Shown: positions 36,260 to 52,083 of the stretch, one piece after another
How positions within the stretch are numbered: position 1 is the first letter of the stretch
Layout of the letters: each line of letters starts with the position of its first letter
Source of the DNA: Azospirillum fermentarium
Lineage (GTDB): Bacteria; Pseudomonadota; Alphaproteobacteria; Azospirillales; Azospirillaceae
Length of the DNA: 64,000 nt
Direction: 5' to 3'
NCBI RefSeq assembly: GCF_025961205.1
Contig: NZ_JAOQNH010000001.1
Location: forward strand, 2,070,001-2,134,000
Notes under the pieces: model-generated
The model's database searches: none
What the model was told of the DNA's origin: nothing
What the model saw: the letters and a program-made list of their open reading frames with translations, nothing else
Program-made: the position numbers and the translations under genes

Positions 36260-36264
36260 GTCCC

Positions 36265-37185
36265 TTACACCTTTTCCTGCGCCAGCGCGCCCCATAGACC
36301 CAGCAGCGCCGTTTGCGGCGGCCGGTCGGTGGTGTGGACGGCAAAGCTCCACCCCGCCGCCCGCGCCAGCGCCGCCAGCCCATCCCGATGCGCGCTCAGC
36401 CGCTCGCGGTAGGCGCCGCGCACCGCCTCCACGCGGGGGACCAGCAGGCGCCCTTCGCCCTCCAGCCCCTGGAACAGCACCCGCCCGCCAAACGGCAGCG
36501 TCTCCTCCGCCGGGTCCAGCACCTGGAGCAGATGGCCGCGCACCCCCCCCGCCGACAGGGCCGACACCGTGGCGTGGATCTCCGGCAGCGGCGACAGCAG
36601 GTCGCCGACCACCACCGCCTGCCCATGGCGGGGCAGGGGTTCGGCGGCGGGCAGGGCCGCGCCGTCACCCTCCTTGTTCATCGGGCTCTGGTTCATCGGG
36701 CTCTGGTTCATCAAGCTCAGGGCCATGCGTTCCAGCACCGTGCGGCTGTGGTCGGGGCGCTGGCCGCCGTTCAGCAGCGCCACCCGCTCGCCGCCGCGCA
36801 CCAGCAGCACGGCCAGCGCCAGCAGCAGCACCTCCGCCCGTTCCCGCTTCAAGGGCAGGGCGGGGGCGGAGCGGTAGTCCATCGACGGCGACCGGTCGCG
36901 CCACAGCCACACGCTCTGCGCCGCCTCCCACTCGTTCTCGCGGACATAGACGGGCACGGTCTTGGCCGACTGGCGCCAGTCGATCATCGACGGGGCGTCG
37001 CCCGGCTGGTAGCGGCGGAACTGCCAGAAGGTCTCGCCCAGCCCGACGCGGCGGCGTCCATGCACCCCCTGGGCCACCGTCGCGGCCACCCGCTCGGCGG
37101 CCACCAGCAGCGGCGGCAGGCGGGAGGCGAGATCCTCCGCCCGGTTGCGGGCCTGTAGGGCGGCGGCGGTGGTGCGGTTGGGCAT
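36265..37185 (-). CDS. DUF58 domain protein
   Basis: This 306-residue DUF58 protein is the usual partner of MoxR ATPases. The motif is GRRRVGLGETFWQFRRYQPGD with the downstream MIDWRQSAKT and VYVRENEWEAAQSVWL segments, then a VWA-like DRSPSMDY. It is predicted to be cytoplasmic and to act as an adaptor between the ATPase and membrane VWA proteins. An in-frame 15-bp repeat encodes NQSPM units near the middle. It starts 35 bp after moxR ends and ends 5 bp before the BatA-like gene. Confidence 0.9.
   Translation of the reverse strand: MPNRTTAAALQARNRAEDLASRLPPLLVAAERVAATVAQGVHGRRRVGLGETFWQFRRYQPGDAPSMIDWRQSAKTVPVYVRENEWEAAQSVWLWRDRSPSMDYRSAPALPLKRERAEVLLLALAVLLVRGGERVALLNGGQRPDHSRTVLERMALSLMNQSPMNQSPMNKEGDGAALPAAEPLPRHGQAVVVGDLLSPLPEIHATVSALSAGGVRGHLLQVLDPAEETLPFGGRVLFQGLEGEGRLLVPRVEAVRGAYRERLSAHRDGLAALARAAGWSFAVHTTDRPPQTALLGLWGALAQEKV
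36676..36720 (-). repeat. In-frame 15-bp tandem repeat within the DUF58 gene
   Basis: GTTCATCGGGCTCTG occurs at 36676-36690 and 36691-36705 and, with three changes, at 36706-36720. Each unit encodes five residues (NQSPM-type), so copy-number change would keep the frame. Confidence 0.85.
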
Positions 37186-37220
37186 CGGCGCGGGGCGGCT
37201 TATGAGGAAAAAGGGTCGGG

Positions 37221-38231
37221 TCAGCGCAGCGGCGCGCACAGGCGCTCGATCAGCCCGTCCAGGGTCAGCCCGTCGGCCCGCGCGGCGAAGTTCAGCGCCA
37301 TGCGGTGACGCAGCACCGGGGCGGCCAGGGCCAGCACATCGTCCAGCGACGGCGACAGCCGCCCGTCCAGCACGGCGCGCGCGCGGGCGGCCAGCATCAG
37401 CGCCTGGCTGGCGCGCGGCCCCGGCCCCCAGGCCACGTTGGCCCGCACCTCGGGCAGCGACGTGGTTTCGGGCCGGCTGTTGCGCACCAGATCGAGGATG
37501 CCATCCACCACCCCGTCGCCCACCGGCACCCGGCGCACCAGCCGCTGGGCGTCCAGCAGGTCGGCGGCGGTCAGCACGGCCACGGGCCGCTCCTCCTCCG
37601 CCCCGGTGGTGGCGATCATCATGCGCCGTTCGGCATCGCGGCCGGGGTAGCCCACATCCACCTGCAGCAGGAAACGGTCGAGCTGCGCCTCGGGCAGGGG
37701 ATAGGTTCCCTCCTGCTCCAGCGGGTTCTGGGTGGCCAGCACGTGGAAGGGCTCGGGCAGGGGATGGTACTGCCCCGCCACCGACACCCGCCGTTCCTGC
37801 ATGGCCTGGAGCAGCGCCGACTGGGTGCGCGGACTGGCGCGGTTGATTTCGTCGGCCATCAGAAGCTGGGAGAACACCGGGCCGGGGATGAAGCGGAAGG
37901 AGCGGCGGTGATGCTCGTCCTCCTCCAGCACCTCCGAGCCCAGGATGTCGGCGGGCATCAGGTCGGGGGTGCACTGGATGCGCTTTTCGTTCAGGCCGAG
38001 GATGATGCCCAGCGTTTCCACCAGCCGCGTCTTGGCCAGCCCCGGCACGCCGATCAGCAGCACATGCCCGCCGGCCAGCAGCGTCACCAGCGTCTGGTCG
38101 ATCACATCGTCCTGGCCGAAGATGATGCGCCCGATCCGTTCGCGGACCAGGGCCATCTTGTCCCCCAGCCCTTCGATGGCGGCTGCAAGCTGCTGGGGGG
38201 AATCGTCGGTGCGGGTGGCGGAGATGGTCAA
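37221..38231 (-). CDS. MoxR-family AAA+ ATPase
   Basis: This 336-residue MoxR ATPase is the head of the four-gene operon. Walker A is GVPGLAKT, with Ala in place of the usual Gly before the Lys, as is normal in MoxR. Walker B is LMADEINRASP; sensor 1 is VLATQNPLEQEGTYPLPEAQLDRF, split here only by convention. The start is a TTG at 38231 behind a GGGGG run, which fits the family length; an ATG at 38156 would also be in frame. It probably energises assembly or activity of the DUF58 and membrane VWA partners. Confidence 0.92.
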   Translation of the reverse strand: MTISATRTDDSPQQLAAAIEGLGDKMALVRERIGRIIFGQDDVIDQTLVTLLAGGHVLLIGVPGLAKTRLVETLGIILGLNEKRIQCTPDLMPADILGSEVLEEDEHHRRSFRFIPGPVFSQLLMADEINRASPRTQSALLQAMQERRVSVAGQYHPLPEPFHVLATQNPLEQEGTYPLPEAQLDRFLLQVDVGYPGRDAERRMMIATTGAEEERPVAVLTAADLLDAQRLVRRVPVGDGVVDGILDLVRNSRPETTSLPEVRANVAWGPGPRASQALMLAARARAVLDGRLSPSLDDVLALAAPVLRHRMALNFAARADGLTLDGLIERLCAPLR

Positions 38232-38410
38232 GCCGAAAATCCCCCTGTCTTCCTTGCGGTTATCGCCCGTGCGGCCTGTCCTGTTTCATGGCGGGCCCCC
38301 CTGACGGATGGCAGCCCTACACGAAACCGCGGCCTGTGCCTATGTCATGGATACGGGTCAGGCGACTATGCTGTGACGAGTATGGCGGAAATGCGTTGGA
38401 CGGTCACCGG

Positions 38411-38980
38411 ATGAACATCGGAAACAATCCAGGGAATGGCAAGACGGGCGGCGGTGTTGATCCCGATACCGTGACCAAGGCCATAGGACATCCTCCGATG
38501 GAGGAACAATACGACATCCGCATTGCACGTGACGGCACGTGGTATCACAATGGTGATCCCATCCGGCGCCTGGAGCTGGCGAAGCTGTTCGCCACGATCC
38601 TGCGGCGGGATGACGCAGGGGATTATTGGCTGATTACGCCTGCCGAAAGGGGGCGCATAGTTGTCGAAGATGTCCCGTTCGTCGCCGTTGAAATGACGGT
38701 CAATGGAAGCGGGCGCGGCCGTGTGTTGTCGTTCCGCACAAATCTCGACGAATGGGTGGATGCCGGGCCGGATCATCCGATCAGGATTGAGACACATCCT
38801 GAAACGGGTGAGCCCCGCCCGTATATCCTTATAAGAAAAGGGCTGGAAGCCCGCATTTCCCGTCCGGTCTTCTATGAACTGGTGGATCAATGCGAGCCGC
38901 AAGCCCAGGACAGGGAGGCTGTGGTCGGCGTATGGAGCAGGAACACATTTTTCGCGCTGGGAGAGCTGCCTGGCGCGTGA
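38411..38980 (+). CDS. DUF1285 family protein
   Basis: This 189-residue DUF1285 protein has the typical YDIRIARDGTWYHNGDPI opening, RRLELAKLFATILRRD, and DYWLITPAERGRIVVEDVPF. The structure of a family member is known, but the role is not. The last 49 bp overlap the start of the NUDIX gene downstream, which suggests coupled expression. Start ATG 38411 is preceded by a weak site; the longer upstream frame gives no family match. Confidence 0.92.
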   Translation: MNIGNNPGNGKTGGGVDPDTVTKAIGHPPMEEQYDIRIARDGTWYHNGDPIRRLELAKLFATILRRDDAGDYWLITPAERGRIVVEDVPFVAVEMTVNGSGRGRVLSFRTNLDEWVDAGPDHPIRIETHPETGEPRPYILIRKGLEARISRPVFYELVDQCEPQAQDREAVVGVWSRNTFFALGELPGA

Positions 38981-39591
38981 CTCTCGACGATGTGCGCAAG
39001 CGGTTCCCCGGCAGCACCACCGCTGCCCGGCTGAGGCCGCCCAAGATCCGTGGCGATCATGACCTGAACCCCGGTTTCGGCCCGCCCCAGGGCCTGCGGG
39101 AGGCGTCGGTGCTGGTGCCGCTGGTGGAGCGGGCGGAAGGGGCGACGGTGCTGTTCACCCTGCGCACCGCCTCGCTGACCGCGCACGCCGGCCAGATCAG
39201 CTTCCCCGGCGGCCGGCGCGAGGCGGAGGACCGTTCGCCGGAAGACACGGCGCTGCGCGAAACGGAGGAGGAGATCGGCCTGTCCCGCGACCGGATCGAG
39301 ATTCTGGGGCAGCTCGACACCTACGTCACCCGCACCGGGTTCCGCGTGACGCCGGTGGTCGGGCTGGTGCGCCCGCCCTTCACCCTCGACCCCGACCCCA
39401 CCGAGGTGGACGAGGTGTTCGAGGTGCCGCTGTCCTTCATCCTCGATCCCGCCAACCCCCAGCGGCACAGCCGCACCTTCATGGGGACGGAGCGGTATTT
39501 CTACGCCTTCCCCTACCAGCAGCGCTACATCTGGGGGGCGACGGCGGGGATGCTGGTGAACCTGCGCGACGTGCTGCGGGAAATGTCGTAA
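38932..39591 (+). CDS. NUDIX hydrolase, CoA pyrophosphatase type
   Basis: This 219-residue NUDIX hydrolase resembles the NudL/YeaB CoA-pyrophosphatase group. The Nudix box GGRREAEDRSPEDTALRE continuing to TEEEIG is intact, and the preceding LTAHAGQISFPGG is the NudL-type UPF0035 motif. It would cleave CoA or related pyrophosphates. It overlaps the DUF1285 gene and is followed 39 bp later by the CCA-adding enzyme, an arrangement common in alphaproteobacteria. Start ATG 38932 has GGAGG upstream. Confidence 0.93.
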   Translation: MEQEHIFRAGRAAWRVTLDDVRKRFPGSTTAARLRPPKIRGDHDLNPGFGPPQGLREASVLVPLVERAEGATVLFTLRTASLTAHAGQISFPGGRREAEDRSPEDTALRETEEEIGLSRDRIEILGQLDTYVTRTGFRVTPVVGLVRPPFTLDPDPTEVDEVFEVPLSFILDPANPQRHSRTFMGTERYFYAFPYQQRYIWGATAGMLVNLRDVLREMS

Positions 39592-39630
39592 GGGTGGGGG
39601 AAACGTCCCCCGCCCGGTTCCCCGCCCATC

Positions 39631-40893
39631 ATGAAACCCGCCGCCCGCCTGACGCCCCAGCCCTGGATGATTGCGCCCGAAACGCGGGCGGTGTTCGACG
39701 CCCTGGCCCGCGGCGGGGCGGACGCGCGCTTCGTCGGCGGCTGCGTGCGCGATGCGTGGCTGAACCGCCCGGTCAAGGACGTGGACATCGCCACCCACGC
39801 CCCGCCCGAGCGGGTGATGGCGCTGCTGGAAACGGCGGGCGTCAAGGCCATCCCCACCGGCATCCAGCACGGCACCGTGACCGCGGTGGTGGACCGCCAG
39901 CATTTCGAGATCACCACGCTGCGCCGCGACGTGGAAAGCTTTGGCCGGCACGCCCGCGTGGAGTTCACCGACGACTGGCGGGAGGATGCGGCACGGCGCG
40001 ACCTGACCATGAACGCGCTGTCCTGCACCCTCGACGGCTGGGTCTATGACCCGTTCGGCGGGCTGGCGGACATGGCGGCGGGGCGGGTGCGTTTCGTCGG
40101 CGCCGCCACCGCGCGGATCGGGGAGGATGTGCTGCGGCTGCTGCGCTTCTTCCGCTTCTTCGCCCATTACGGCACCGGGGAACCGGACGGGGAGGCGCTG
40201 GCCGCCTGCCGCCACTGGGCGCCCAGCCTGCCCACCCTGTCGGGGGAGCGGTTGCAGGGGGAAACCCTGCGCCTGCTGACCGCGGCGCGGGCGGCGGATG
40301 TGTGGCGGCTGATGGGGGACACGGGCGTGATGGCCCACCTGCTGCCGGCGGCCACCCGCACCGGGCGGCTGCAGCGGATGATCGGCCTGGAATGCGCGCT
40401 GGGTCACCGGCCCGATGCGCTGCTGCGGCTGGCGGCGGTGCTGGACGCGGGGCGGACGGGGGCGCTGGCGGCGGCCAACACCCTGCGCCTGTCCAACGCC
40501 GCCCGCAGCCGGCTGGCCGCGGCGGTGGAGCCGGACGCGGCGGTGCCGGTGCGGGGGGACGGGGCGGAGCTGCGCCGCGCTCTCTACCGCCTGCGCTCGG
40601 CGGAGACGTTCACCGACGCGCTGATGCTGGCGGCGGCAGCGGGCGGGCCGGTGTCGGTGCCACGGCTGGCGGCGGGGCTGGCGGTGGCCGGGTCCATGCC
40701 GGTGTTCCCGCTGTCGGGCCGCGACCTGATGGCGGCGGGGATCGAGCGTGGCCCGGCGCTGGGCCGCACGCTGCGTGCCCTGGAAGCCTGGTGGACCGGC
40801 CGGGATTTCGCACCGGACCGGGCGGCATGCCTGGAGGCGTTGGCGCAGCGGCTGGGCCGTTGGCGTGTGATCGGTTCAAACGGAAGCGCTTGA
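39631..40893 (+). CDS. CCA tRNA nucleotidyltransferase
   Basis: This 420-residue class II nucleotidyltransferase of the PcnB/CCA family adds or repairs the 3' CCA of tRNAs. It has FVGGCVRDAWL (nucleotide-binding G-G-x-x-R-D) and the catalytic DVDIAT Asp pair. RRDLTMNALSC and DPFGGLADMAAGRVRFVG follow, the motif that selects the incoming base. The LRLLRFFRFFAHYG arginine-rich part is typical of CCA enzymes. The window's tRNA-Ser encodes its CCA, so this enzyme may act mostly in repair. The gene's stop lies in the right arm of a long inverted repeat. Confidence 0.94.
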   Translation: MKPAARLTPQPWMIAPETRAVFDALARGGADARFVGGCVRDAWLNRPVKDVDIATHAPPERVMALLETAGVKAIPTGIQHGTVTAVVDRQHFEITTLRRDVESFGRHARVEFTDDWREDAARRDLTMNALSCTLDGWVYDPFGGLADMAAGRVRFVGAATARIGEDVLRLLRFFRFFAHYGTGEPDGEALAACRHWAPSLPTLSGERLQGETLRLLTAARAADVWRLMGDTGVMAHLLPAATRTGRLQRMIGLECALGHRPDALLRLAAVLDAGRTGALAAANTLRLSNAARSRLAAAVEPDAAVPVRGDGAELRRALYRLRSAETFTDALMLAAAAGGPVSVPRLAAGLAVAGSMPVFPLSGRDLMAAGIERGPALGRTLRALEAWWTGRDFAPDRAACLEALAQRLGRWRVIGSNGSA

Positions 40894-40905
40894 ACCGATC
40901 ACACG
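40864..40905. repeat. 16-bp perfect inverted repeat at the CCA gene 3' end
   Basis: CGTGTGATCGGTTCAA (40864-40879) and TTGAACCGATCACACG (40890-40905) are perfect complements around a 10-nt centre. The repeat spans the CCA gene stop codon and sits between convergent genes. There is no U-run, so it may be a bidirectional terminator or a dispersed palindromic element. Confidence 0.85.
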
Positions 40906-40929
40906 GAAAAACCGAAAGCCCAGCGTCCT

Positions 40930-42951
40930 TCAGGTTCCCATGCGCAGCGGTTCCGCCTGTTCGCTGCCGTCACCCCACGGGGCGGTGCAGCCCCGTTCCA
41001 CGCGGAAGGCCGAAAGATCGGGGGCGCTGAAGATCTCCGTCAGGCACGGCTGTTGCGCCAGCCACGGGACCAGGGGCTTTTCCAGGGAGGCCGACCGCTC
41101 TTTTTCCCGGCTGGGAGCCGGCAGCAGCGGGTCCACGGCGATGATGACGATGTCGGGCGCGAAGTCGCGGCGCACGCGGTTGATGCGCTTTTGCGCGTAG
41201 TCGTCGTCGTACAGCGGGTAGGTGTTGAGATCGTAGAACAGGCGGTGCTTCAGCCCCGGCCCGAACAGCCCGTAGGGCCGCAGGCCGGCGGCATAGATGC
41301 GCAAGGGCTCAGGCTGGGCGGCGATCCAATCGTAGATGCCGGCATGGGCGCGGGGGATCGTCTGTTGCGGGCGGGGTTCGCCGTGCCGGTGGTGAAGGAC
41401 GGTGACGGCGATGACCGCCACAATGGCCGCCGCCGCGGCCGCTTCGCGCCTCCAGCGATGGCCGAGGGCCGCGGGCCCGTTGGCCGCCGCCGGCACCGTC
41501 CGGGTCAGCGGCCCCAGGCGCCCGGCCAGCCGCAGCACCGCCCCGCCCAGCAGCGCATCCAGCAGGGCGGTGAACCCGACCATCCCGGTCAGGGTCGAGA
41601 ATTCCGCCATCCGCCATTGCACGAGGCTGCGGAAAAACAGCGAAAAGGGGGTGATGCTGAAGATCGCCAGACCATACACCAGCCACGCCAGCGCCACCGC
41701 CGCCGCCAGCCGGGACGGCCCCCGCAGGACGGCGGCCAGCCCCCCCAGCGTGACGATGGCGCAGCCCAGCAGCGCCATCATCCGGTAATCCACCGGCTTC
41801 AGAATCTCCCAGAACAGCCCGGACGCGATCCCCGCCGCCACCGTCTTGCCCCAGGCGGAAAAGGACAGATCCCCGGTCAGGCTGCCGAAGGCCGCCAGAT
41901 TGCGCAGGCTGAACGCCATGCCGGCCAGCAGCGCGGCCCCGGCCGCCACCGCAAGCAGCCGCCGCCCGCGGCGGTCCAGGGGGTGTTTCCACACGGCGAC
42001 CCCCGCCGTCACCACCCACGCAAGCAGATAGGCCAGGGTATTCGGCTTGGTGGCGATGGCCAGGGCCAGGGCGGCCGCACTTCCCGCAATCTGCACCGGG
42101 ACGCTGCCGCCCGCCGCGGCCGTGGTCAGGGCGCGCAGCAGCAGCGCCAGGGACGCCAGCAGGCACGCCGCGGTGAACACGTCGTTCTTGCCCAACTGGC
42201 CGAGCGACCCGCCGATGGCGATCATCGCCATGCCGGCAAACGCCAGGGTCAGAAGCGCTTCATAGACCGGCCCCAGGCGTCGGGCGGGGGCCTGGACGCC
42301 GATGCTGCGGACCATCGACGCCCCCGCGGCCACGGTCACCGCCAGCCCCAGCATGTTTCCCGCCAGCACCGACAGGATGCCGCCGTGCATCACCGAAAAG
42401 CCGGTAATCAGCTCGAACCCGTAGGAATAGCTCTGGTACGGCCCCTGGAACGACCACAGCGTGCCGTTTTGCAGGTATTCCATCAGGCCGGGCAGGTGAT
42501 AGGACACCACGTCCCAGTTCAAGGTGACGGGGACCGCCCCCGTCATCTCCCGCACCCACAGCCGCAGCGACCCGGCCAGGGAAAGCGGGGCGCCGTCGGG
42601 GGTGAGCGCCAGCCATTGCGCAATGGGGTACAGGGCCAGAACCGCCGCCCCCGCCGCCACCGGCAGCATCGCCAGGGCGCCCAGGGGGGTGAGCCGCGTC
42701 CGCTCCGCGGCGGGGGCCGCGGGCGTGGTCCAGCCGATGCGCAGAAGGGACGCCGCCAGCACGGCGTAGCACCCGGTGACCGCCGCCGGGTGGAAGATCC
42801 CCAGCAGCCCCGGAACCACCATGGACAGATAGACCACGAAGGCGGCCAGCACGAGGGCCAGCGTCATGGTTCCGCCGTACGGCGCCGTCACCCGCCGTGC
42901 AGCATCCAGAATCAGGACGAAGGAGGCGAGGAAGAGGGCGTCGGCAAGCAT
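40930..42951 (-). CDS. GT-C-type polytopic membrane protein, candidate glycosyltransferase
   Basis: This 673-residue inner-membrane protein has about 11-13 predicted TM helices. The first periplasmic loop carries NWDVVSYHLPGLMEYLQNG, a pattern typical of GT-C-fold glycosyltransferases in which the Asp contacts the lipid-linked sugar. A later GKNDVFTAACLLASLALLL stretch and a soluble C-terminal domain of about 130 residues complete it. It is divergent from the DprE/UbiA cassette (start-to-start 224 bp), so it is a candidate acceptor transferase for the lipid-linked pentose made there. The family call is by pattern; the substrate is inference. Confidence 0.7.
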   Translation of the reverse strand: MLADALFLASFVLILDAARRVTAPYGGTMTLALVLAAFVVYLSMVVPGLLGIFHPAAVTGCYAVLAASLLRIGWTTPAAPAAERTRLTPLGALAMLPVAAGAAVLALYPIAQWLALTPDGAPLSLAGSLRLWVREMTGAVPVTLNWDVVSYHLPGLMEYLQNGTLWSFQGPYQSYSYGFELITGFSVMHGGILSVLAGNMLGLAVTVAAGASMVRSIGVQAPARRLGPVYEALLTLAFAGMAMIAIGGSLGQLGKNDVFTAACLLASLALLLRALTTAAAGGSVPVQIAGSAAALALAIATKPNTLAYLLAWVVTAGVAVWKHPLDRRGRRLLAVAAGAALLAGMAFSLRNLAAFGSLTGDLSFSAWGKTVAAGIASGLFWEILKPVDYRMMALLGCAIVTLGGLAAVLRGPSRLAAAVALAWLVYGLAIFSITPFSLFFRSLVQWRMAEFSTLTGMVGFTALLDALLGGAVLRLAGRLGPLTRTVPAAANGPAALGHRWRREAAAAAAIVAVIAVTVLHHRHGEPRPQQTIPRAHAGIYDWIAAQPEPLRIYAAGLRPYGLFGPGLKHRLFYDLNTYPLYDDDYAQKRINRVRRDFAPDIVIIAVDPLLPAPSREKERSASLEKPLVPWLAQQPCLTEIFSAPDLSAFRVERGCTAPWGDGSEQAEPLRMGT

Positions 42952-43174
42952 GGGATGGGATCCTGAACGTCCCGTACGAGGGCGCGGAGAGAGAGGGCGG
43001 ACACTACCCCAGCGGCGGAAGCGGGCGGTAGGCTTTATTGCGCGCGCTGCCCGGTGGCACCGCCCATGCCGCCACCGGATCGGTTGTCCGGGGGAACGCG
43101 TGTTGCCCCGCCTTGCGGGAGAACGTATACGGTGCCTGTCTGATGCGGCAACGGCCCGGAATAGAGGCGTCGGA

Positions 43175-44635
43175 ATGAGCGTTCTGGAATCGCGGGAGCG
43201 GGCGGTGCCGATGGTGGAGGCGGATGTGCCCCTGGTCGTCGATCTCGACGGCACCCTGCTCAAGACCGATCTCTTGTACGAGGCGCTGTTCGTCCTGCTG
43301 GCCACCCATCCCCTGACGGCGCTGCGCACGCCGCTGTGGCTGAGGGAGGGGAAGGCGGCGTTCAAGGCGCGGCTGGCCGATGCGGTGCTGCTGGACCTGC
43401 GCACCCTGCCGGTGAACGAAGCGGTGCTGGACCTGATCCAGGAGGCCAAGGCCGCCGGGCGGCGGGTCTATCTGGCCTCGGCCTCCGACCGCCGGTATGT
43501 GCAGGCCTTTGCCGACCATATGGGCGGTTTCGACGGGGTGTACGCGTCGGACGGCGTGACCAACCTGGGGGCGGGGAACAAGGCCCGGTCGCTGGTGGCG
43601 CTGTTCGGGGAAGGGGGGTTCGATTACGTCGGCAACTCCATGGCCGACGTGCCGGTGTGGCAGGTGGCGCGCACCGCCTATGCCGTCAACGCCTCGGGTG
43701 CCGTGGTGCGGGCGGCGCGGGCGGCGTCTGCCGACGTGCGGGTGCTGGAGGGGCGGACGGCGGGGGTCGGCGATTACCTGCGTGCCATGCGCCTGCACCA
43801 ATGGGCCAAGAACCTTCTGATCCTGGTTCCGGGGCTGGCCGCCCACACCTTCTCCGCGGGCGCGCTGTGGCATGCGCTCCTGGCCTTTCTCAGCTTCAGC
43901 CTGTGCGCCTCCAGCGTCTATCTGCTGAACGACCTGCTGGACCTGCGCAGCGACCGGCAGCACGCGAGCAAGCGGCTGCGGCCCTTTGCGGCGGGCACTG
44001 TGCCGCTGTCGCACGGGATGGCGCTGTTTCCGGTGCTGCTTGTGGCCTCGGTGGCGGCGGCGCTTCTGCTGTCGCCGGCCTTTGTGGCGGTTCTGGCGGG
44101 GTATTACGGCCTGACGCTGGCCTATTCGCTGGCGCTGAAGCGGCACCTGATCATCGACGTGGTGACGCTGTCGTCGCTCTACGGCGTGCGTCTGGTGGCG
44201 GGGGGCGTGGCGTTCGGGGTGGCCCTGTCGGAATGGCTGATCGCCTTTTCCACCTTCTTCTTCCTCAGCCTGGCGCTGGTGAAGCGGGTGACCGAGCTGA
44301 TCGGGCGGCGGCGGGCGGGCAAGGGGGATCCGGCGGGCCGCGCCTACACCCTGGACGACCTGCCGGTGCTGGAGATGCTGGCGGCGTCCAGCGGTTTCGT
44401 GTCCGTCCTGGTGCTCGCCCTCTACATCAACAGCCCGGAAGTCATGATGCTCTACCGCCATCCGCAGCTTTTGTGGTGCGGCGGGCTGGTGCTGATCTAT
44501 TGGCTGTGCCGCATCATGGTGCTGACCCACCGCGGCCAGATGAACGACGACCCCGTGATCTATGCCGTGACCGACCGGGTGAGCCTGTCCTGCGGCGTGC
44601 TGCTGATCCTGGCGCTGGCGGGGGCCACGCTGTGA
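43175..44635 (+). CDS. HAD-UbiA fusion: polyprenyl-phosphate phosphoribosyltransferase with phosphatase domain
   Basis: This 486-residue protein joins two enzymes. Residues 1-195 form a HAD hydrolase with the motif I DLDGT (Asp23, Asp25), motif II Ser102/Ser104, motif III Lys136 and motif IV GNSMAD (153-158), so the active site is complete. Residues about 205-486 form a UbiA-type membrane prenyltransferase with NDLLDLRSD (252-260), the diphosphate/Mg site, followed by KRLRPFAAG, as in decaprenyl-phosphate phosphoribosyltransferase (Rv3806c). The fusion would add phosphoribose to a polyprenyl phosphate and could then remove the 5'-phosphate. Its stop overlaps the GtrA start. Confidence 0.85.
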   Translation: MSVLESRERAVPMVEADVPLVVDLDGTLLKTDLLYEALFVLLATHPLTALRTPLWLREGKAAFKARLADAVLLDLRTLPVNEAVLDLIQEAKAAGRRVYLASASDRRYVQAFADHMGGFDGVYASDGVTNLGAGNKARSLVALFGEGGFDYVGNSMADVPVWQVARTAYAVNASGAVVRAARAASADVRVLEGRTAGVGDYLRAMRLHQWAKNLLILVPGLAAHTFSAGALWHALLAFLSFSLCASSVYLLNDLLDLRSDRQHASKRLRPFAAGTVPLSHGMALFPVLLVASVAAALLLSPAFVAVLAGYYGLTLAYSLALKRHLIIDVVTLSSLYGVRLVAGGVAFGVALSEWLIAFSTFFFLSLALVKRVTELIGRRRAGKGDPAGRAYTLDDLPVLEMLAASSGFVSVLVLALYINSPEVMMLYRHPQLLWCGGLVLIYWLCRIMVLTHRGQMNDDPVIYAVTDRVSLSCGVLLILALAGATL

Positions 44636-45048
44636 CCGCCGCGGCCCTGTCCCTGCCGGCGCTGGCGGTGCGCTACACCGCCTTCGCCCTGGTGGCCACC
44701 GCCGTCAACCTGCTGACCCAGCGGGGGCTGTTCGCGGTGTACGGCGGCCCGTTCGCGGTCTATGGCGCGCTGGCGCTGGGCACGCTGACCGGGCTGGTGA
44801 CCAAGTACGCGCTGGACAAGCGGTGGATCTTCGCCGACCGCTCCACCGGGGCCGCCACCCACGCGCGCAAGTTTTCCCTCTACACCCTGATGGGGGTGGC
44901 GACGACGGTGATCTTCTGGGGCAGCGAGCTGGCCTTCGACGCCGTCGGCGGCGGGGACTGGCGCTATGTGGGCGGCGCCTTGGGGCTAGCGGTGGGCTAT
45001 GTGGTGAAATACCGCCTGGACCGGCGGTTCGTGTTCGGAGCCGCGTGA
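44632..45048 (+). CDS. GtrA-family membrane protein
   Basis: GtrA proteins are small four-helix membrane proteins thought to flip or present polyprenyl-linked sugars. The 138-residue product has the four TM pattern and the GtrA-like ATAVNLLTQRGLF and KYALDKRWIF segments (conserved N, K and W/F) and ends YRLDRRFVFG. The start is a GTG that overlaps the upstream TGA; the stop overlaps the next ATG (TGATG). The mycobacterial Rv3789 beside dprE1 is a GtrA protein. Confidence 0.88.
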   Translation: MTAAALSLPALAVRYTAFALVATAVNLLTQRGLFAVYGGPFAVYGALALGTLTGLVTKYALDKRWIFADRSTGAATHARKFSLYTLMGVATTVIFWGSELAFDAVGGGDWRYVGGALGLAVGYVVKYRLDRRFVFGAA

Positions 45049-46367
45049 TGAAGCTGTCGGGGTGGGGGCGGTTCCCGCGGGTGGAAAGCCGGCTGGTCAC
45101 CGCACGGGACCAGGATGATGCGGTGCGGGCGGTGGCCGGCGGCGGGCCGCTGATCGCGCGGGGCAACGGGCGGGCCTATGGCGACGCGGCCATCGGCCCG
45201 CGGACCACGTTGTCGCTGCTGGGCATGGACCGCATGCTGGGCTTCGACCCGGACAGCGGGGTTCTGACCTGCGAGGCGGGCGTCCTGCTGAGGGACATCC
45301 TCGGCGTCTTCGTGCCGCGGGGCTGGTTCCCGCCGGTCACGCCGGGGACCAAGATGGTCACCGTGGGCGGCATGATCGCCGCCGACGTCCACGGCAAGAA
45401 CCACCACGCCGCCGGATCGTTCGGCGACCATGTGGACAGCCTGGACCTGCTGCTGGCCGACGGGCGGGTGGTCACCTGTGGCCCCAACCGCGCGCCGGAG
45501 CTGTTCGCCGCCACCCGCGGCGGCATGGGGCTGACGGGGGTGATCCTGCGCGCGTCCTTCCGCCTGATCCCGGTGGAGACCGGCTATATCCGGCAGGAGA
45601 CGCTGCGGGCGGACGATCTCGCCGGCATCATGGCGATGTTCGAGGACTCCGCCGGCTGGACCTATTCCGTTGCCTGGATCGACTGTCTGGCCAAGGGGCC
45701 GCGGATGGGCCGCAGCCTGCTGTTCCGCGGCGAGCACGCTCGGCTGGACGAACTGCCCGCCGCCGCCCGCGCCCGGCCCCTGGACGTGACCCTGCGCCGG
45801 GCCCGCACGGTGCCGTTCGATGTTCCGGCCATCGCGCTCAACCGCCTGTCGGTGGGAGCGTTCAACGCGCTGTACTGGCGGCTGGGCACCCCGCGGGAGG
45901 AGCTGATCGACTATGACCGCTTCTTCTACCCGCTGGATTCGCTGCTGGAGTGGAACCGAATCTACGGGCGTCCCGGTTTCACCCAGTATCAATGCGTGCT
46001 GCCGCTGTCCACCAGCGCCGACGGGCTGCGGGCGCTGCTGAGCGCCATCGGGGCGGCGGGCAACGCCTCGTTCCTGGCAGTGCTGAAGCTGTTCGGGCGG
46101 CAGGACGGGCTGATGTCCTTCCCCATGGAGGGGTACACGCTGGCGCTGGATTTCCCGGCCAGCACGGCCACCCTGGGCCTGCTGCTGGATCTGGACGCCA
46201 TCGTCGCCGATCACGGCGGGCGGCTCTATCTGGCCAAGGACGCGCGCATGGGGGCGGCCCTGCTGCGCCGCGGCTATCCGGGGCTGGACGGGTTTCAGGC
46301 GTTGCGCGCCGCCCATGGGCTGGCTGCCGTTTTCCGTTCCGTTCAATCCGAGAGACTGGGCCTATGA
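45048..46367 (+). CDS. dprE1: DprE1-like FAD-dependent oxidase (decaprenylphosphoryl-ribose 2'-epimerase subunit)
   Basis: DprE1 oxidises the 2'-OH of polyprenylphosphoryl-ribose to a keto intermediate that DprE2 reduces, giving the arabinose form. The 439-residue protein has the FAD-binding motifs ARGNGRAYGDAA (37-48) and HGKNHHAAGSFGDHV (115-129). It also has the C-terminal FLAVLKLFG and GGRLYLAKDARM segments (Lys397, matching the catalytic mycobacterial Lys418). The segment GYTLALDFP (362-370) places Ala366 where mycobacterial DprE1 has Cys387, the covalent benzothiazinone target. It is translationally coupled on both sides. Confidence 0.87.
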   Translation: MKLSGWGRFPRVESRLVTARDQDDAVRAVAGGGPLIARGNGRAYGDAAIGPRTTLSLLGMDRMLGFDPDSGVLTCEAGVLLRDILGVFVPRGWFPPVTPGTKMVTVGGMIAADVHGKNHHAAGSFGDHVDSLDLLLADGRVVTCGPNRAPELFAATRGGMGLTGVILRASFRLIPVETGYIRQETLRADDLAGIMAMFEDSAGWTYSVAWIDCLAKGPRMGRSLLFRGEHARLDELPAAARARPLDVTLRRARTVPFDVPAIALNRLSVGAFNALYWRLGTPREELIDYDRFFYPLDSLLEWNRIYGRPGFTQYQCVLPLSTSADGLRALLSAIGAAGNASFLAVLKLFGRQDGLMSFPMEGYTLALDFPASTATLGLLLDLDAIVADHGGRLYLAKDARMGAALLRRGYPGLDGFQALRAAHGLAAVFRSVQSERLGL

Positions 46368-47110
46368 CCGCCGTTTCCACCGGTTCCGTGCTGATTCTGG
46401 GTGCCGCATCCGACATGGGGCGGGCCATCGCCCGGCGCTACGCCGAAGCGGGGCGGGCGCTGATCCTGGCCGCCCGCACCCCTGAGCGGCTGGAGACCGA
46501 CGCCGCCGACCTGCGCCTGCGCTTCAAGGCCGATGTGCGGACGGCGGCGTTCGACGCGCTGGACACCGCCGGTCATGCCGCCTTCCTCGACGGGCTGGGG
46601 GCGCTGCCGGACACGGTGGTGTGCGTGGTCGGGCTTCTGGGGGACCAGGGGAAATCCCAGCGGGATGCCGCCGTGGCCCGGCGGGTGATCGACACCAACC
46701 TGACCGGCCCGGCCAGCATTCTGGGCGAAGCCGCCAACCGGATGGAGGCGCGCGGGTCGGGCACCATCATCGGCGTCAGCTCGGTGGCGGGCGAGCGGGG
46801 GCGGGCCAGCAACTACGTCTACGGCGCGGCCAAGGCGGGGCTGACGGCGTTTCTGTCGGGGCTGCGCAACCGGCTGTCCAGGGCGGGGGTGCAGGTCATC
46901 ACCGTCAAGCCCGGCTTCGTGCGCACCCGCATGACCGAGGGGATGGCCCTTCCCGGTGCCCTGACCGCCGAACCGGACGAGGTGGCCCGCGCCGTCCTGG
47001 CCGCCCAGGCCACGGGCCGCGACGTGATCTATGTGCGGCCCGTGTGGCGGCTCATCATGCTCGTCATCCGCTCGCTGCCCGAAGCGGTGTTCAAGCGGAC
47101 CAAGCTGTAA
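46364..47110 (+). CDS. dprE2: DprE2-like short-chain dehydrogenase
   Basis: This 248-residue NAD(P)H-dependent SDR is the likely partner of the oxidase upstream. It has the GAASDMG cofactor motif (13-19), a Ser140-Tyr153-Lys157 catalytic set (GVSSVAGERG, YVYGAAK), and TVKPGFVRTRMTEGM, as in DprE2. The C-terminal VWRLIMLVIRSLPEAVFKR tail is hydrophobic, consistent with a membrane-bound polyprenyl substrate. It overlaps the upstream stop (ATGA). By sequence alone it could be another SDR; the neighbours make DprE2 the best call. Confidence 0.83.
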   Translation: MTAVSTGSVLILGAASDMGRAIARRYAEAGRALILAARTPERLETDAADLRLRFKADVRTAAFDALDTAGHAAFLDGLGALPDTVVCVVGLLGDQGKSQRDAAVARRVIDTNLTGPASILGEAANRMEARGSGTIIGVSSVAGERGRASNYVYGAAKAGLTAFLSGLRNRLSRAGVQVITVKPGFVRTRMTEGMALPGALTAEPDEVARAVLAAQATGRDVIYVRPVWRLIMLVIRSLPEAVFKRTKL

Positions 47111-47137
47111 CCCCTTCTCCCAGAACGGATAAGCCCT

Positions 47138-47158
47138 CTCCCCCCGGGGAGGGGGGAG
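47138..47158. terminator. GC-rich hairpin between dprE2-like and hemF
   Basis: CTCCCCCC (47138-47145) and GGGGGGAG (47151-47158) pair perfectly around GGGGA, in the gap between convergent stops. It resembles the CCCTCTCC-type palindromes at 52143 and 61719. Confidence 0.6.
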
Positions 47159-47164
47159 CGCGCC

Positions 47165-48019
47165 TTATGGCCACTTCACCTCCGGCGGCAGGCTCATCAG
47201 GATGGCCTCGGTGTTGCCGCCGGTCTTCAGGCCGAACAGGGTGCCGCGGTCGTGGAGCAGGTTGAATTCCACGTACCGCCCGCGCTTGATCAGCAGCGCG
47301 TCCCGCTGTTCCGCCGTCCACGGTTTGTGCATGGAGCGGCGGATCAGGCGGGGATAGACGTCCAGGAACGCCTCGCCCACCGCGCGGGTGAAGGCGAAAT
47401 CCGCCTCCCAGCCGCCGCTGTCCAGGCTGTCGTAGAAGATGCCGCCCACCCCGCGCGCCTCACCCCGGTGGGGAAGGAAGAAGTAGCGGTCGCACCATTC
47501 CTTGTATTTTTCGTAATACGCCGGGTCGTGGGCGTCGCAGGCGGCCCGCAGCGCGCCGTGGAAATCGGCGGTGTCCTGGGGATCGGGAAAGGTGGGGGTC
47601 AGGTCGGCCCCGCCGCCGAACCACCCGCGGGTGGTGACGATGTGGCGGGTGTTCATGTGCGCCGCCGGAACCAGGGGCGAGCGCATGTGCGACACCAGGC
47701 TGATGCCCGCCGCCCAGAACCGCCCGTCCTCCGCCGCACCGGGGATGCTGGCGCGGAAGTCGGGGCTGAAGGTGCCGTGCACCACCGACACGTTGACGCC
47801 GACCTTTTCGAACACCCGCCCGCGCATGACGGCCATGGTGCCGCCGCCGCCGGTTCCGCCCGCGTGGTCGGGACGCTCCCACGGGGTGCGCTCGAAGCGC
47901 CCGGCGGGCAGGGGGGAGCCGGCCATCTCGTCCTCGATGGCTTCGAAGGCGGCGCACAGCCGGTCGCGCAGGCTGGCGAACCACGCCGCGGCGCGGGTCT
48001 GACGGTCGGTGTCGGTCAT
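47165..48019 (-). CDS. hemF: Oxygen-dependent coproporphyrinogen III oxidase
   Basis: HemF decarboxylates coproporphyrinogen III to protoporphyrinogen IX using O2. The 284-residue protein shows the family signature: [55 protein letters not shown] and [13 protein letters not shown], and ends [17 protein letters not shown]. The start at ATG 48019 matches the family better than one at 48061. It is convergent to the dprE cassette. An oxygen-independent HemN is not in the window. Confidence 0.97.
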
Positions 48020-48080
48020 GATGGGCCGTGAAAAGGGAAAGGCGGACAGGGGCAGGGACATAGGGCGCGCCTGCCCGTTG

Positions 48081-48542
48081 TCACCCCTCCACGGCGGGAA
48101 AACCGCCGGTCTGGCGCAATGCCTCCCCCAGCACCATGGCCGCGGCCACCGCCACGTTGAGCGACCGGGCCGGGGGCGCCATGGGAATCAGCAGACGCAC
48201 GTCAGCGGAATCGTGGACCGCATCGGGCACGCCGGCGCTTTCCCGCCCCACCATGATCCGGTCGCCGGAGTCGAAGATGAACCGGGTGTAAGGGACGGCG
48301 GCCCGCGTGCTCAGCAGCACCAGACGCCCGGTTGACGGCTGCGACCGGTAGCTCTCCCACGACGTGTGACGGGTCATATGAACATGGGATAGGTAGTCCA
48401 TGCCCGCGCGCCGCATCTTCGAGTCATTCAAGATGAAGCCGCAGGGTTCGATGATATCAACGGGAAGACCAAAACAGGACGCCAGACGCATCAGCGTGCC
48501 GGCGTTCTGCGGGATGTCGGGTTCGAAAAGAACAAGGCGCAT
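48081..48542 (-). CDS. trmL: tRNA (cytidine(34)-2'-O)-methyltransferase TrmL
   Basis: This SPOUT-class enzyme 2'-O-methylates the wobble base of tRNA-Leu. The 153-residue protein has the TrmL-type N-terminus [32 protein letters not shown], the knot [11 protein letters not shown] and the final [27 protein letters not shown] 48542 is used; the longer frame upstream would add 45 residues without family support. It is divergent from petA across 255 bp. Confidence 0.94.
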
Positions 48543-48797
48543 CAGCCTAAGGCACAGGGCAGCGGCAGTTCGAGTTACGCGACATAATGTCCAAAATATC
48601 TGTCTTTTCAAGAACGTTCCGCGACGGTATATCGCACGCTCAAAAATGGCAGGGTTTTCATACTTCCCGCCGATCATGGGTGTCCGGGGGTCATCCGACC
48701 GGCGGACACGCCCTGCCGTTTCGTGCTACGAAGGTCCATGGCTCATACCCGGCGCCGGATAGGCGTCTCGCGTATGTCTTTGAGGAGAAGAACGCTA
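48543..48797 (+). promoter_or_regulatory. Promoter and leader of petABC
   Basis: The first part of this 255-bp region, to about 48660, is AT-rich and holds the divergent promoters. A structured leader hairpin follows: GTGTCCG (48680-48686) pairs with CGGACAC (48703-48709) and GGTC (48689-48692) with GACC (48697-48700). A GAGGAG site lies just before the petA ATG. No known riboswitch is recognised. Confidence 0.5.
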
Positions 48798-49367
48798 ATG
48801 GCTCAGACCACGCATCCGTCCGGCACGGGTGCCCCCACGGCCCCCGGCGGTGAGGGATCATCCCGCCGAGACTTCCTCTATCTGGCCACCGGAGCGGTGG
48901 GCGCCGTGGGTGTCGCCTCGGCTGCCTGGCCGTTCATCGACAGCATGAACCCCGCCGCCGACACGCTGGCTCTCGCCTCGATCGAGGTGGACCTGGCCCC
49001 GGTCGCCGAGGGTCAGTCCATCACCGTCACCTGGCGCGGCAAGCCGATTTTCGTCCGTCACCGCACGGCCAAGGAAATCGACGAGGCCAAGACCGTCACC
49101 ATCTCCGATCTGCGCGACCCGCAGGCGGACGACAAGCGCGTCCAGAAGCCGGAATGGCTGATCCTGATCGGCATCTGTACCCACCTGGGCTGCGTGCCGC
49201 TGGGGCAGAAGCCGACCGATCCGCGCGGTGACTTCGACGGGTGGTTCTGCCCGTGCCACGGCTCGCACTATGATTCCTCGGGGCGTATCCGCAAGGGTCC
49301 GGCGCCGCTGAATCTGGCTGTGCCGCCGTACGCCTTCCTCAACGATTCGCGCATCAAGCTCGGCTGA
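48798..49367 (+). CDS. petA: Rieske iron-sulfur subunit of cytochrome bc1
   Basis: This subunit passes electrons from quinol to cytochrome c1. The 189-residue protein has a Tat-type SRRDFLYLA signal-anchor (22-30). The Rieske 2Fe-2S motifs are CTHLGC (Cys127, His129, Cys132) and CPCHGSHYD (Cys151, Cys153, His154). The disulfide-forming cysteines are Cys132 and Cys153. It is the first gene of petABC. The ATG 48798 behind a GAGGAG site is preferred over two upstream in-frame ATGs. Confidence 0.97.
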
Positions 49368-49397
49368 GCGGTGTAAGGCCACGGGAGACCCCAGGTT

Positions 49398-50666
49398 ATG
49401 TCTCAGGGACACGCCTCTACCTTTAAAAATCCGGTCGTGAAGTGGATCGACAGCCGTCTGCCGATCTTCACGATGATGCATCACGAGTACAACGAGTACC
49501 CGATGCCGCGGAACGTCAACTATCTGTGGGCGTTCGGTGCCATCGCGGCCGTCATGCTGATCATCATGATCGCGACCGGCCTCGTTCTCGCCATGCAGTA
49601 CGCCGCCCACACCTCCATCGCCTTCGACAGCGTCGAGCGCATCATGCGCGACGTGAACTACGGCTGGCTGCTGCGCTATGTCCACGCCAACGGCGCGTCG
49701 ATGTTCTTCATCGCCGTCTACATCCACATCTTCCGCGGCCTGTACTACGGTTCGTACAAGGCGCCGCGCGAAATCCTGTGGATCCTGGGCGTGGTGATCT
49801 TCCTGGTCATGATGGGCACCGCCTTCATGGGCTACGTGCTGCCGTGGGGCCAGATGAGCTTCTGGGGTGCGACCGTCATCACCAACCTGTTCTCGGCCTT
49901 CCCGATCGTGGGCGACCCGATCGTGACCTGGCTGTGGGGCGGTTTCTCGGTTGACAACCCGACGCTCAACCGCTTCTTCGCGCTGCACTTCCTGCTGCCG
50001 TTCGTGATCCTGGCGCTGGTCATCCTGCACACCGCCGCCCTGCACATCTGCGGGTCGAACAACCCGCTGGGCATCGACGCCAAGGGCCCGCAGGACACCG
50101 TGCCGTTCAACCCGTACGTCACGATCAAGGATCTGTTCGCGGTCGTCTGCTTCCTGATCCTGTACGCCGCGTTCGTGTTCTTCATGCCCAACTACATGGG
50201 CCACCCGGACAACTACATCCCGGCCAACCCGCTGGTGACCCCGGCGCACATCGTGCCCGAATGGTACTTCCTGCCGTTCTACGCGATCCTGCGCGCGATC
50301 CCGGACAAGCTGGGCGGCGTGCTGGCCATGTTCGGCGCCATCGCGGTGCTGTTCATCCTGCCGTGGCTCGACACCTCCAAGGTGCGCAGCTGCAAGTTCC
50401 GTCCGATCTACCGTCAGTTCTTCTGGGTTCTGGCCATCGACTCCCTGGTGCTGGGCTACGCCGGTGCCATGCCCGCCGAAGGCATCTGGCTGCTGATCGC
50501 CCGTATCGGCACCACCTATTACTTCTTCCACTTCCTGATCCTGCTGCCGCTGCTGGGCAAGCTGGAGCGTCCGCTGCCGCTCCCGGCCAGCATCAGCGAG
50601 CCGGTTCTGAAGGGTGGCGGGCATGTCGCCGCCGGTGCCACCGCCAAGCCGATGGAGAAGGCATAA
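49398..50666 (+). CDS. petB: Cytochrome b subunit of cytochrome bc1
   Basis: This subunit carries hemes bL and bH and the quinone sites. The 422-residue protein has eight TM segments and the heme-ligand His residues in the [20 protein letters not shown] and [18 protein letters not shown] helices. The Qo-site PEWY motif lies in [18 protein letters not shown]. It is an undivided cytochrome b, as in proteobacteria and mitochondria, not the split b6/IV type. The stop overlaps the petC start (TAATG). Confidence 0.98.
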
Positions 50667-51430
50667 TGCGCGCTCTGAAGACTGTCATCCTGTCCGCCGC
50701 CCTGGCTCTGGGCATCGGCGGCACCGCGCTGGCGTCGGGCGGCGTGCACATCCCGGCCCAGGACTGGCCCCATTCGGGCGTGTTCGGCACCATCGACAAG
50801 CAGTCGGCCCAGCGTGGCTTCCAGATCTACAAGGAAGTCTGCTCGACCTGCCATTCCATGCGTCTGGTCCCGATCCGCACCCTGGCGGGCATCGGTTTCA
50901 CCGAAGCCCAGATCAAGGACATCGCGGCCGGCTATGAAGTGACCGACGGCCCGAACGACGCCGGTGAGATGTTCCAGCGCCCGGCGGTGCCGGCGGACCG
51001 TTTCCCCAAGCCGTTCCCCAACGACAACGCGGCCCGCGCGGCCAACGGCGGCGCCCTGCCGCCCGACCTGTCGCTGATCGCCAAGGCCCGCGTGGGCGGT
51101 GAGGATTACCTCTACGCCTTCCTGACCGGCTTCGAAGATCCGGCCCCCGCCGACGTCACCCTGATGCCCGGCATGAACTACAACAAGTATTTCCCCGGCC
51201 ATCAGGTGGGCATGCCCAACATCCTGATGCCCGACGGCGTGACCTATGCCGACGGCACCAAGGCCACGGTGGAGCAGCAGGCGCACGACATCGCGACCTT
51301 CCTGACCTTTGTGGCCGAGCCCCACCTGGATGCGCGCAAGCAGATGGGCGTGAAGGTGATCCTGTTCCTGATCGTCTTCGCCGGCCTGATGTACGCCACC
51401 AAGCGTCAGCTTTGGAGCGGCCTGCACTGA
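50666..51430 (+). CDS. petC: Cytochrome c1 subunit of cytochrome bc1
   Basis: This subunit receives electrons from the Rieske protein. The 254-residue precursor has a signal peptide (SAALALGIGGTALASGG) and the heme c motif CSTCH (Cys59, Cys62, His63). It also has the PPDLSLIAKAR stretch, an axial Met in the LMPGMNYNKY region, and a C-terminal TM anchor (VILFLIVFAGLMYAT). It is the last gene of the petABC operon and is followed by a clear terminator. Confidence 0.97.
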   Translation: MRALKTVILSAALALGIGGTALASGGVHIPAQDWPHSGVFGTIDKQSAQRGFQIYKEVCSTCHSMRLVPIRTLAGIGFTEAQIKDIAAGYEVTDGPNDAGEMFQRPAVPADRFPKPFPNDNAARAANGGALPPDLSLIAKARVGGEDYLYAFLTGFEDPAPADVTLMPGMNYNKYFPGHQVGMPNILMPDGVTYADGTKATVEQQAHDIATFLTFVAEPHLDARKQMGVKVILFLIVFAGLMYATKRQLWSGLH

Positions 51431-51465
51431 GAACCCTTTCGGGCGATCAGCGCAAAAAAGACTGG

Positions 51466-51497
51466 ACAGGGCGCCCTCGGGCGCCCTGTTCTGTTTG
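51466..51497 (+). terminator. Terminator of petABC
   Basis: ACAGGGCGCC (51466-51475) and GGCGCCCTGT (51480-51489) form a 10-bp stem with a CTCG loop. They are followed by TCTGTTT. The structure lies 35 bp after the petC stop. Confidence 0.85.
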
Positions 51498-51528
51498 GGT
51501 GTCCTGCAATTTCGAAGGCAGCCCAACC

Positions 51529-52083
51529 ATGGCCGACCCGCTGATCGACGAGATCATTGATTTCTGGTTCGACGACGAAGCGATCAAACCCTATTGGTTC
51601 AAGGCGACGGTCAGTTTCGACCGCATGGTCGCCGAACGCCTGGGCGAACCCTATGACCGCGCCGCCGCCGGCGAACTGGACCATTGGGCCGACGATGTGG
51701 ACGGGTGTCTGGCCCTGTGCATCCTGTTGGATCAGGTGCCGCGCAACATCTTCCGCGGAACGCCCAAGGCGTTCGCCACAGACGTTCAGGCCCGCCGTTT
51801 CGCCGCCCACGCCGTCGATAACGGCTATGACCTGGAATGCACCGAGGACGAGCGGACCTTCTTCTACCTGCCGTTCGAGCATCATGAGGACGCCGACAGC
51901 CAGCGCCTGTCGGTCATCCTGTTCAAAGAGCGGGTGAAGCTGAAGGAACAAGTCCATTACGCCGAACGCCATGCGGAGATCATCGCCCGCTTCGGCCGCT
52001 TTCCTCACCGCAACGCCATCCTCGGCCGCGCCAGCACGCCGGAGGAAGAGGCGTTCCTGACGGAGCCGGATTCGTCGTTCTGA
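51529..52083 (+). CDS. DUF924 family protein
   Basis: This 184-residue DUF924 protein belongs to a helical, TPR-like fold of unknown role. The signatures are IIDFWFDDEAIKPYWF, LALCILLDQVPRNIFRGTPKAFATD, FFYLPFEHHED, and the final GRFPHRNAILGRASTPEEE. It begins at ATG 51529 after the petABC terminator and is convergent with an SDR gene. Expression with petABC is unlikely given the terminator. Confidence 0.93.
   Translation: MADPLIDEIIDFWFDDEAIKPYWFKATVSFDRMVAERLGEPYDRAAAGELDHWADDVDGCLALCILLDQVPRNIFRGTPKAFATDVQARRFAAHAVDNGYDLECTEDERTFFYLPFEHHEDADSQRLSVILFKERVKLKEQVHYAERHAEIIARFGRFPHRNAILGRASTPEEEAFLTEPDSSF

Follow-up and report, generated by a model that had tools for sequence, protein, structure and literature searches.

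A five-gene island of Azospirillum fermentarium with a predicted role in surface D-arabinofuranosylation

Whether a few neighbouring genes may suffice to build a lipid-bound arabinose and to attach it to a surface glycan is the question raised by a locus of Azospirillum fermentarium. The stretch of DNA analysed here (the window) comprises 64,000 nucleotides of contig NZ_JAOQNH010000001.1 (assembly GCF_025961205.1), from a genome of 5.89 Mb in 4 contigs. The initial annotation described four overlapping or touching genes at 43175-47110 of the window as a complete cassette of the polyprenylphosphoryl-arabinose (DPA) type. The open reading frames were confirmed at these positions, all on the plus strand and with adjacent genes overlapping by 1 or 4 bases. 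The steps that make the sugar donor are covered by these four genes; the word complete did not hold in full, since a terminal transferase is also needed and the probable one is encoded just outside that interval, at 40930-42951 of the minus strand. We propose, with about two chances in three, that the five genes constitute a D-arabinofuranosylation island whose products would build lipid-bound arabinose, flip it and attach it to a surface glycan.

In the proposed mechanism, a HAD-UbiA fusion protein would transfer phosphoribosyl from phosphoribosyl pyrophosphate (PRPP) to polyprenyl phosphate, and its HAD domain would then remove the 5'-phosphate. DprE1-like and DprE2-like proteins would invert C2 by oxidation and reduction, giving polyprenyl-P-D-arabinofuranose, and a GtrA protein would help the lipid to reach the periplasmic face. 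Finally, the divergently encoded polytopic protein would act as a glycosyltransferase (GT) of the GT-C type, moving arabinofuranose onto the surface glycan. At this locus the proposal is based on protein families, on their characteristic motifs and on how far the island extends, all read from sequence; for relatives elsewhere, it draws on the reaction of the Citrobacter HAD-UbiA protein and on the need for NoeP in Rhizobium.

The island and its donor genes

The fifth gene probably belongs to the system, and the best evidence of its membership is the exact insertion of the five genes between two others. These flanking genes lie outside the system, and we take them, from reading their sequences and not from a family search, to be cca (CCA tRNA nucleotidyltransferase, 39631-40893, plus strand) and hemF (coproporphyrinogen oxidase HemF, 47165-48061, minus strand). 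Both were mapped in 82 genomes of the family, measuring gaps between match ends. Of the 45 genomes of the genus, counting the present one, 20 did not enter the comparison because the two genes were on different contigs, in other orientation or far apart, or because one was not found. The other genomes of the genus with both genes convergent within 20 kb number 24, and the gap does not exceed 154 bp in 22 of them and is 1191 and 1512 bp in the remaining two. Here it is 6277 bp, and the genes called within are exactly the five. Counted per kb, the G+C content of the island is about 69-72%, within the 61-77% of its surroundings, and thus gives no sign of foreign origin. The fifth gene and the cassette are separated by 223 bp (42952-43174), which presumably hold both promoters; a promoter scan of this region gave no sigma-70-like site.

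The assignments made for the four cassette proteins were borne out, as all give full-length matches to the expected families with motifs intact. The first gene (43175-44635, plus strand) encodes the HAD-UbiA fusion, a predicted polyprenyl-phosphate phosphoribosyltransferase (PPPRS) with an N-terminal 5'-phosphatase (PRP) domain. It matches NCBIfam NF006088 with 632 bits (cut-off 351), Pfam UbiA at 1e-19 and Pfam HAD at 2e-10. Residues 199-384 match the decaprenyl-phosphate phosphoribosyltransferase structure 8j8j at 2e-31. The protein carries the HAD motif DLDGTL at residue 23 and the UbiA motifs NDLLDLRSD (N-D-x2-D-x3-D) at 252 and KRVTE (K-R-x2-E) at 370. Their spacing equals that of N247, D248, D251, D255, R366 and E369 of Citrobacter ORF15, residues that have been probed by mutation (PMC11127046; this and the other papers given by PMC number are cited for excerpts of their text). 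In a nine-row alignment of HAD-UbiA proteins every row has the UbiA motifs unchanged, and all rows have the HAD motif DLDGT except NoeC of Rhizobium sp. IRBG74, which unlike the window's protein has no HAD domain. The second gene (44632-45048, plus strand) encodes a small membrane protein of the GtrA family (NF037976, 157 bits against a cut-off of 50; PF04138 also over its cut-off), presumed from this family to be the flippase of polyprenyl-P-arabinose.

The third gene (45048-46367, plus strand) would encode the FAD-dependent polyprenyl-P-ribose 2'-oxidase. Its product aligns with solved DprE1 structures over residues 3-438 of 440 at about 3e-88. The fourth (46364-47110, plus strand) encodes a short-chain dehydrogenase/reductase (SDR) and putative 2-keto reductase, which in the PDB scores best against the DprE2 chain 21gq_C (1e-39), the runner-up reaching 4e-17; the catalytic S, Y and K of the SDR core are aligned. 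Both proteins stay under the curated NCBIfam equivalog cut-offs, DprE1 with 450.5 bits over the full length of NF053785 (cut-off 500) and DprE2 with 215.6 bits for NF053786 (cut-off 250). These scores speak against the proposed product, and would fit an alternative in which the two homologues act on another lipid-linked or free sugar and the product is not D-arabinofuranose; they would also be expected if the models are tuned to actinobacteria. We consider this alternative very improbable, as among solved structures the two proteins match DprE1 and DprE2 best, by a wide margin over other oxidases and SDRs, their genes are operonic with a phosphoribosyltransferase, and an operon with the equivalent four genes is used to attach D-arabinofuranose to Nod factors (PMC5080398).

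Several individual residues are important in the DprE1 of M. tuberculosis, and the equivalents of H132, K134, Q334, Y415 and K418 are conserved in the A. fermentarium protein, with Thr in place of N385. Of 33 aligned sequences, 32, among them that of the window, have Ala at the position of Cys387 (residue 367 here) and one has Thr; none has Cys. Cys387 is the residue bound by benzothiazinones, and H132, K134 and N385 lie in the inhibitor pocket (PMC6015584). The locus would offer a bacterial version of a pathway targeted by tuberculosis drugs, with a predicted natural insensitivity to covalent benzothiazinones because of the Ala at that position; for M. avium, insensitivity with Cys387 replaced by Ala has been reported (PMC6015584).

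The fifth gene as a candidate transferase

The product of the fifth gene is an orphan membrane protein of 673 residues. By hydropathy it has 13 hydrophobic segments, an 82-residue loop with the sequence NWDVVSYHLP and a 152-residue soluble C-terminus. From topology, motif and context we predict that it is a GT-C arabinosyltransferase, which would make it a concrete candidate for the terminal D-arabinofuranosyltransferase, the missing step of the pathway; the genus is plant-associated and tractable. Several lines point to this role, among them the precedent of NoeP, the enrichment of polytopic proteins beside cassettes and the natural fusion of GT87 domains to HAD-UbiA.

Regarding the first line, deletion of noeP in IRBG74 abolishes arabinosylated lipo-chitooligosaccharides, and deletion of noeN leaves fewer of them (PMC5080398). 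Regarding the second, DprE1 relatives were confirmed in at least 582 stretches of named genomes, and the neighbours of the best 80 of them were surveyed. All four cassette genes are found in 44 loci, all except GtrA in 22, and other sets in 14. Polytopic proteins occupy 42 of 157 slots adjacent to or inside the cassettes and, at a distance of four genes or more, 26 of 327 (odds ratio 4.2), with a p-value of about 1e-7 that is indicative only, since it takes slots as independent and the loci of related genomes are not. Furthermore, of 1573 proteins four carry the loop motif D-x(2,4)-YH[LFWM]P, and each of these is polytopic: the fifth protein, its relative in the same-genus genome G044, a Cereibacter protein encoded directly downstream of DprE2, and a protein encoded two genes upstream of HAD-UbiA at locus L088.

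A few cassette neighbours can be recognised as GT-C proteins, which also favours the transferase role. Altogether 77 polytopic proteins fall into 47 clusters, which is an upper bound of the GT-C diversity. When ten cassette-neighbour proteins were compared with families, one matched GT87 above the cut-off, one came just below that of PMT_2 and eight had no match above or close to a cut-off. In another set of ten membrane proteins (the window's, the G044 relative, NoeP and seven others), one matched DUF6311, one reached DUF2142 below the cut-off and eight had no match.

Several observations weigh against the transferase reading and against the generality of the arrangement. Neither Pfam nor NCBIfam has a family that the fifth protein matches, and it fits no known glycosyltransferase profile. 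Its sole PDB match under 0.01 covers 73 residues of an ADP/ATP carrier (0.0018), and a two-row profile found nothing in the PDB, Emb and Aft proteins included. The profile gave no convincing match to other cassette-linked membrane proteins, and the comparisons with the Cereibacter protein and with NoeP were not significant. In G044, the relative is encoded on a different contig from the cassette of that genome, and beside that cassette lies a polytopic protein of another kind (432 aa). Among the 71 cassettes with both flanks called (9 of the 80 loci, without a called gene on one side, were left out), a polytopic protein is directly adjacent or inside in only 35, and the class, being a hydropathy count, includes proteins that are not glycosyltransferases, some of them acyltransferase-like by eye or LPG_synthase_TM-like. 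Also, GtrA is not beside the cassette in the 22 loci that hold the other three genes.

These points could be explained if the four genes make polyprenyl-P-arabinose and the fifth protein is a polymerase, a ligase or an unrelated membrane protein, with the transferase encoded elsewhere. The orphan status of the protein, the place of its G044 relative in what by eye is an exopolysaccharide-like locus, and the 36 cassettes without a directly adjacent polytopic gene would favour this explanation. However, the fifth gene shares the cca-hemF insertion with the cassette; NoeP, a GT87 protein or a PMT_2-like protein occupies comparable positions in other cassettes, and the topology and D-x(2,4)-YHLP loop motif are common to cassette-linked proteins in Cereibacter and at L088. 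On balance we regard it as unlikely, if by no means negligible, that the transferase lies elsewhere, and we favour the fifth protein for this step.

Relatives of the fifth protein were searched for widely. They were found in 2 of 82 family genomes (its own and G044) and in 1 of 385 genomes of the class, its own, a sample that does not show G044. None was found in plasmids, and of 26 stretches of the named-genome collection matched in a pattern search, none encodes a relative. As far as these searches reach, the protein is very rare.

A further membrane protein, of 322-333 residues, lies between UbiA and DprE1 in six cassettes without GtrA (L052, L055, L057, L058, L061 and L063, cluster c4) and is possibly an alternative lipid-handling partner. 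A protein of similar size that adjoins HAD-UbiA elsewhere (L166:7440-8426) matches LPG_synthase_TM (PF03706), and the family name of its class comes from this one member.

Known counterparts and the acceptor

The initial annotation cited the noe genes as precedent, and they proved to be closer than it stated, with the same gene order and a DprE1 that is 53% identical (HAD-UbiA, 40%). These genes, noeCNHOP in Rhizobium sp. IRBG74 and noeCHOP in Azorhizobium, serve D-arabinosylation of Nod factors. On the plasmid of IRBG74 (L068) the order is UbiA, GtrA, DprE1 and DprE2, followed by a membrane protein; according to record annotation, the plasmids of IRBG74 and Sinorhizobium alkalisoli (L069) both carry UbiA, GtrA, an FAD oxidase, an SDR and a 401-residue protein near nodABC. 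We name these genes noeC, noeN, noeH, noeO and noeP by order. Besides the missing HAD domain of NoeC, differences from the A. fermentarium island concern NoeP and, as far as reading by eye shows, the nod genes. NoeP, at 401 residues and encoded downstream, is not recognisably related to the 673-residue protein; phmmer gave no NoeP match at E<=1e-3 and hhalign no significant result. Inspection by eye of the genes at 36000-52000 revealed no nod gene, the genome as a whole not having been searched for them. The describers of the noe operon suggested that the noeN product could be a phosphatase (PMC5080398). The IRBG74 gene that is noeN by order (L068:7582-8004) is annotated as GtrA family, and on this account a flippase role is the likelier one.

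In mycobacteria an equivalent reaction series, the DPA pathway, is carried out by Rv3806c, Rv3807c, DprE1, DprE2, Rv3789 and the Emb/Aft transferases. The initial annotation had the four proteins cover all steps from polyprenyl phosphate and PRPP to a lipid-linked pentose, and this stands, with the qualification that the phosphatase step falls to the fused HAD domain and that Rv3807c is unrelated to HAD phosphatases (PMC11127046). The A. fermentarium system also differs from the mycobacterial one in the Ala at the Cys387 position and in a fifth protein without an Emb/Aft match in the PDB. For one HAD-UbiA fusion, Citrobacter ORF15, the chemistry has been demonstrated (PMC11127046). The three-component pentofuranose systems of the Citrobacter youngae O1/O2 loci (ORF15, ORF14 and ORF12, the last being GT136) share the HAD(PRP)-UbiA(PPPRS) fusion with the window and combine it with a flippase and a GT-C protein, for which the window has a presumed flippase and a GT-C protein predicted from topology, motif and context. 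They use a MATE flippase with one SDR epimerase (O2) or none (O1), whereas the window has GtrA and DprE1/E2. No GT136 model came up for the fifth protein in the Pfam and NCBIfam scans, which included no comparison with the ORF12 sequence, and the protein is not assigned to that family. Kelly et al. (2024; PMC11127046) assigned the PPPRS with its PRP domain, the MATE flippase and GT136, and noted DprE1/E2 homologues in arabinofuranose-containing systems. The general mechanism is known from their work and from noeCNHOP; the present analysis contributes the fifth gene, the precise extent of the insertion with its five genes, and the fusions in Azospirillum described below. Among the matches listed, papers related to arabinofuranosylation make no mention of Azospirillum.

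As for the acceptor, an exopolysaccharide is the likeliest candidate, proposed here tentatively and with considerable doubt. The locus of the fifth-protein relative in G044 and that of the DPA cassette in another genome (G047) have flanking genes in common, among them those for Wzc-like and outer-membrane proteins (named by eye), which points weakly to an exopolysaccharide. The A. fermentarium genome encodes the corresponding Wzc-like protein, 60% identical, on contig C4; its only HAD-UbiA and its only strong DprE1 match lie in the window. In A. brasilense, an arabinose-rich exopolysaccharide has been linked to cell aggregation (PMC3759889, PMC10383645). This link is only suggestive for the present pathway, since 35 of 45 genus genomes are without a close DprE1, and we do not claim that the arabinose of that polymer originates from it.

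The sugar could instead be attached to flagellin or pilin, by analogy with the arabinosylation of pilin that has been proposed in Pseudomonas; in P. aeruginosa a PPPRS orthologue has been proposed to act in type IV pilus glycosylation (PMC11127046). We rate a protein acceptor as unlikely. Reading by eye beside the window cassette and at ten family loci revealed no gene for pilin or flagellin, an inspection made without a family search and not over the whole genome, and both the G047 cassette and the G044 relative of the fifth gene stand in loci that look exopolysaccharide-like.

GT87-HAD-UbiA fusions and distribution of the cassette

Fourteen same-genus genomes carry HAD-UbiA in a long frame (G014, G018, G020, G022, G024-G027, G031, G033-G035, G037 and G045; L162:4937-7741, L163:4711-7599, L164:7073-9916 and L167-L177). 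In 13 of them it is one open frame of 956-1039 codons, with an N-terminal membrane domain followed by HAD-UbiA; the best frame of G034 covers only residues 379-933. Pfam GT87, HAD and UbiA were all found in the three frames searched, and the fusion is present on plasmids of A. lipoferum 4B, A. oryzae and A. ramasamyi. The HAD-UbiA module of the 14 genomes is 47-49% identical to that of the window. Unlike the window, these systems have the GT87-type membrane domain in the same chain and no close DprE1 in the genome (best E 5e-11), and a small membrane protein of 124 residues then follows in the three loci read, the one at L162 matching EamA. Because a close DprE1 is missing from these genomes, the GT87-HAD-UbiA chain is probably a condensed system for ribofuranosylation, and we found no literature account of such a fusion for ribofuranose. 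The joining of GT87 to a donor synthase supports the general pairing, not the 673-residue protein directly. Together, the five-gene insertion and these natural fusions make the GT-C partnership testable.

A broader proposal may be put forward, although we would sooner bet against it as a whole than for it. The donor module of HAD-UbiA, GtrA and DprE1/E2 would be a plug-in that works with interchangeable, mutually unrecognisable GT-C transferases. The 673-residue protein would found a new and very rare family of arabinofuranosyltransferases decorating an Azospirillum exopolysaccharide, and some Azospirillum would compress the same logic into one GT87-HAD-UbiA chain for ribofuranose.

By these sequence searches the DPA-type cassette is widespread and patchy, not rare. 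Near-full-length DprE1 relatives (E<=1e-35) are found in 36 of 82 family genomes and in 10 of 45 genus genomes, own included. At E<=1e-40, 46 of 385 alphaproteobacterial genomes, again with its own, have a DprE1 match, one of them partial and another only 30% identical. The 80 listed named loci belong to Alphaproteobacteria, Bacteroidota, Kiritimatiellales, Ignavibacteriales, Thermosynechococcus and others, and no HAD-UbiA copy was found in phages. In one genome (G001) the cassette is split, with DprE1 and an adjacent polytopic protein on one contig (L041:8998-10317) and HAD-UbiA, GtrA and DprE2 together on another (L165:5055-7710).

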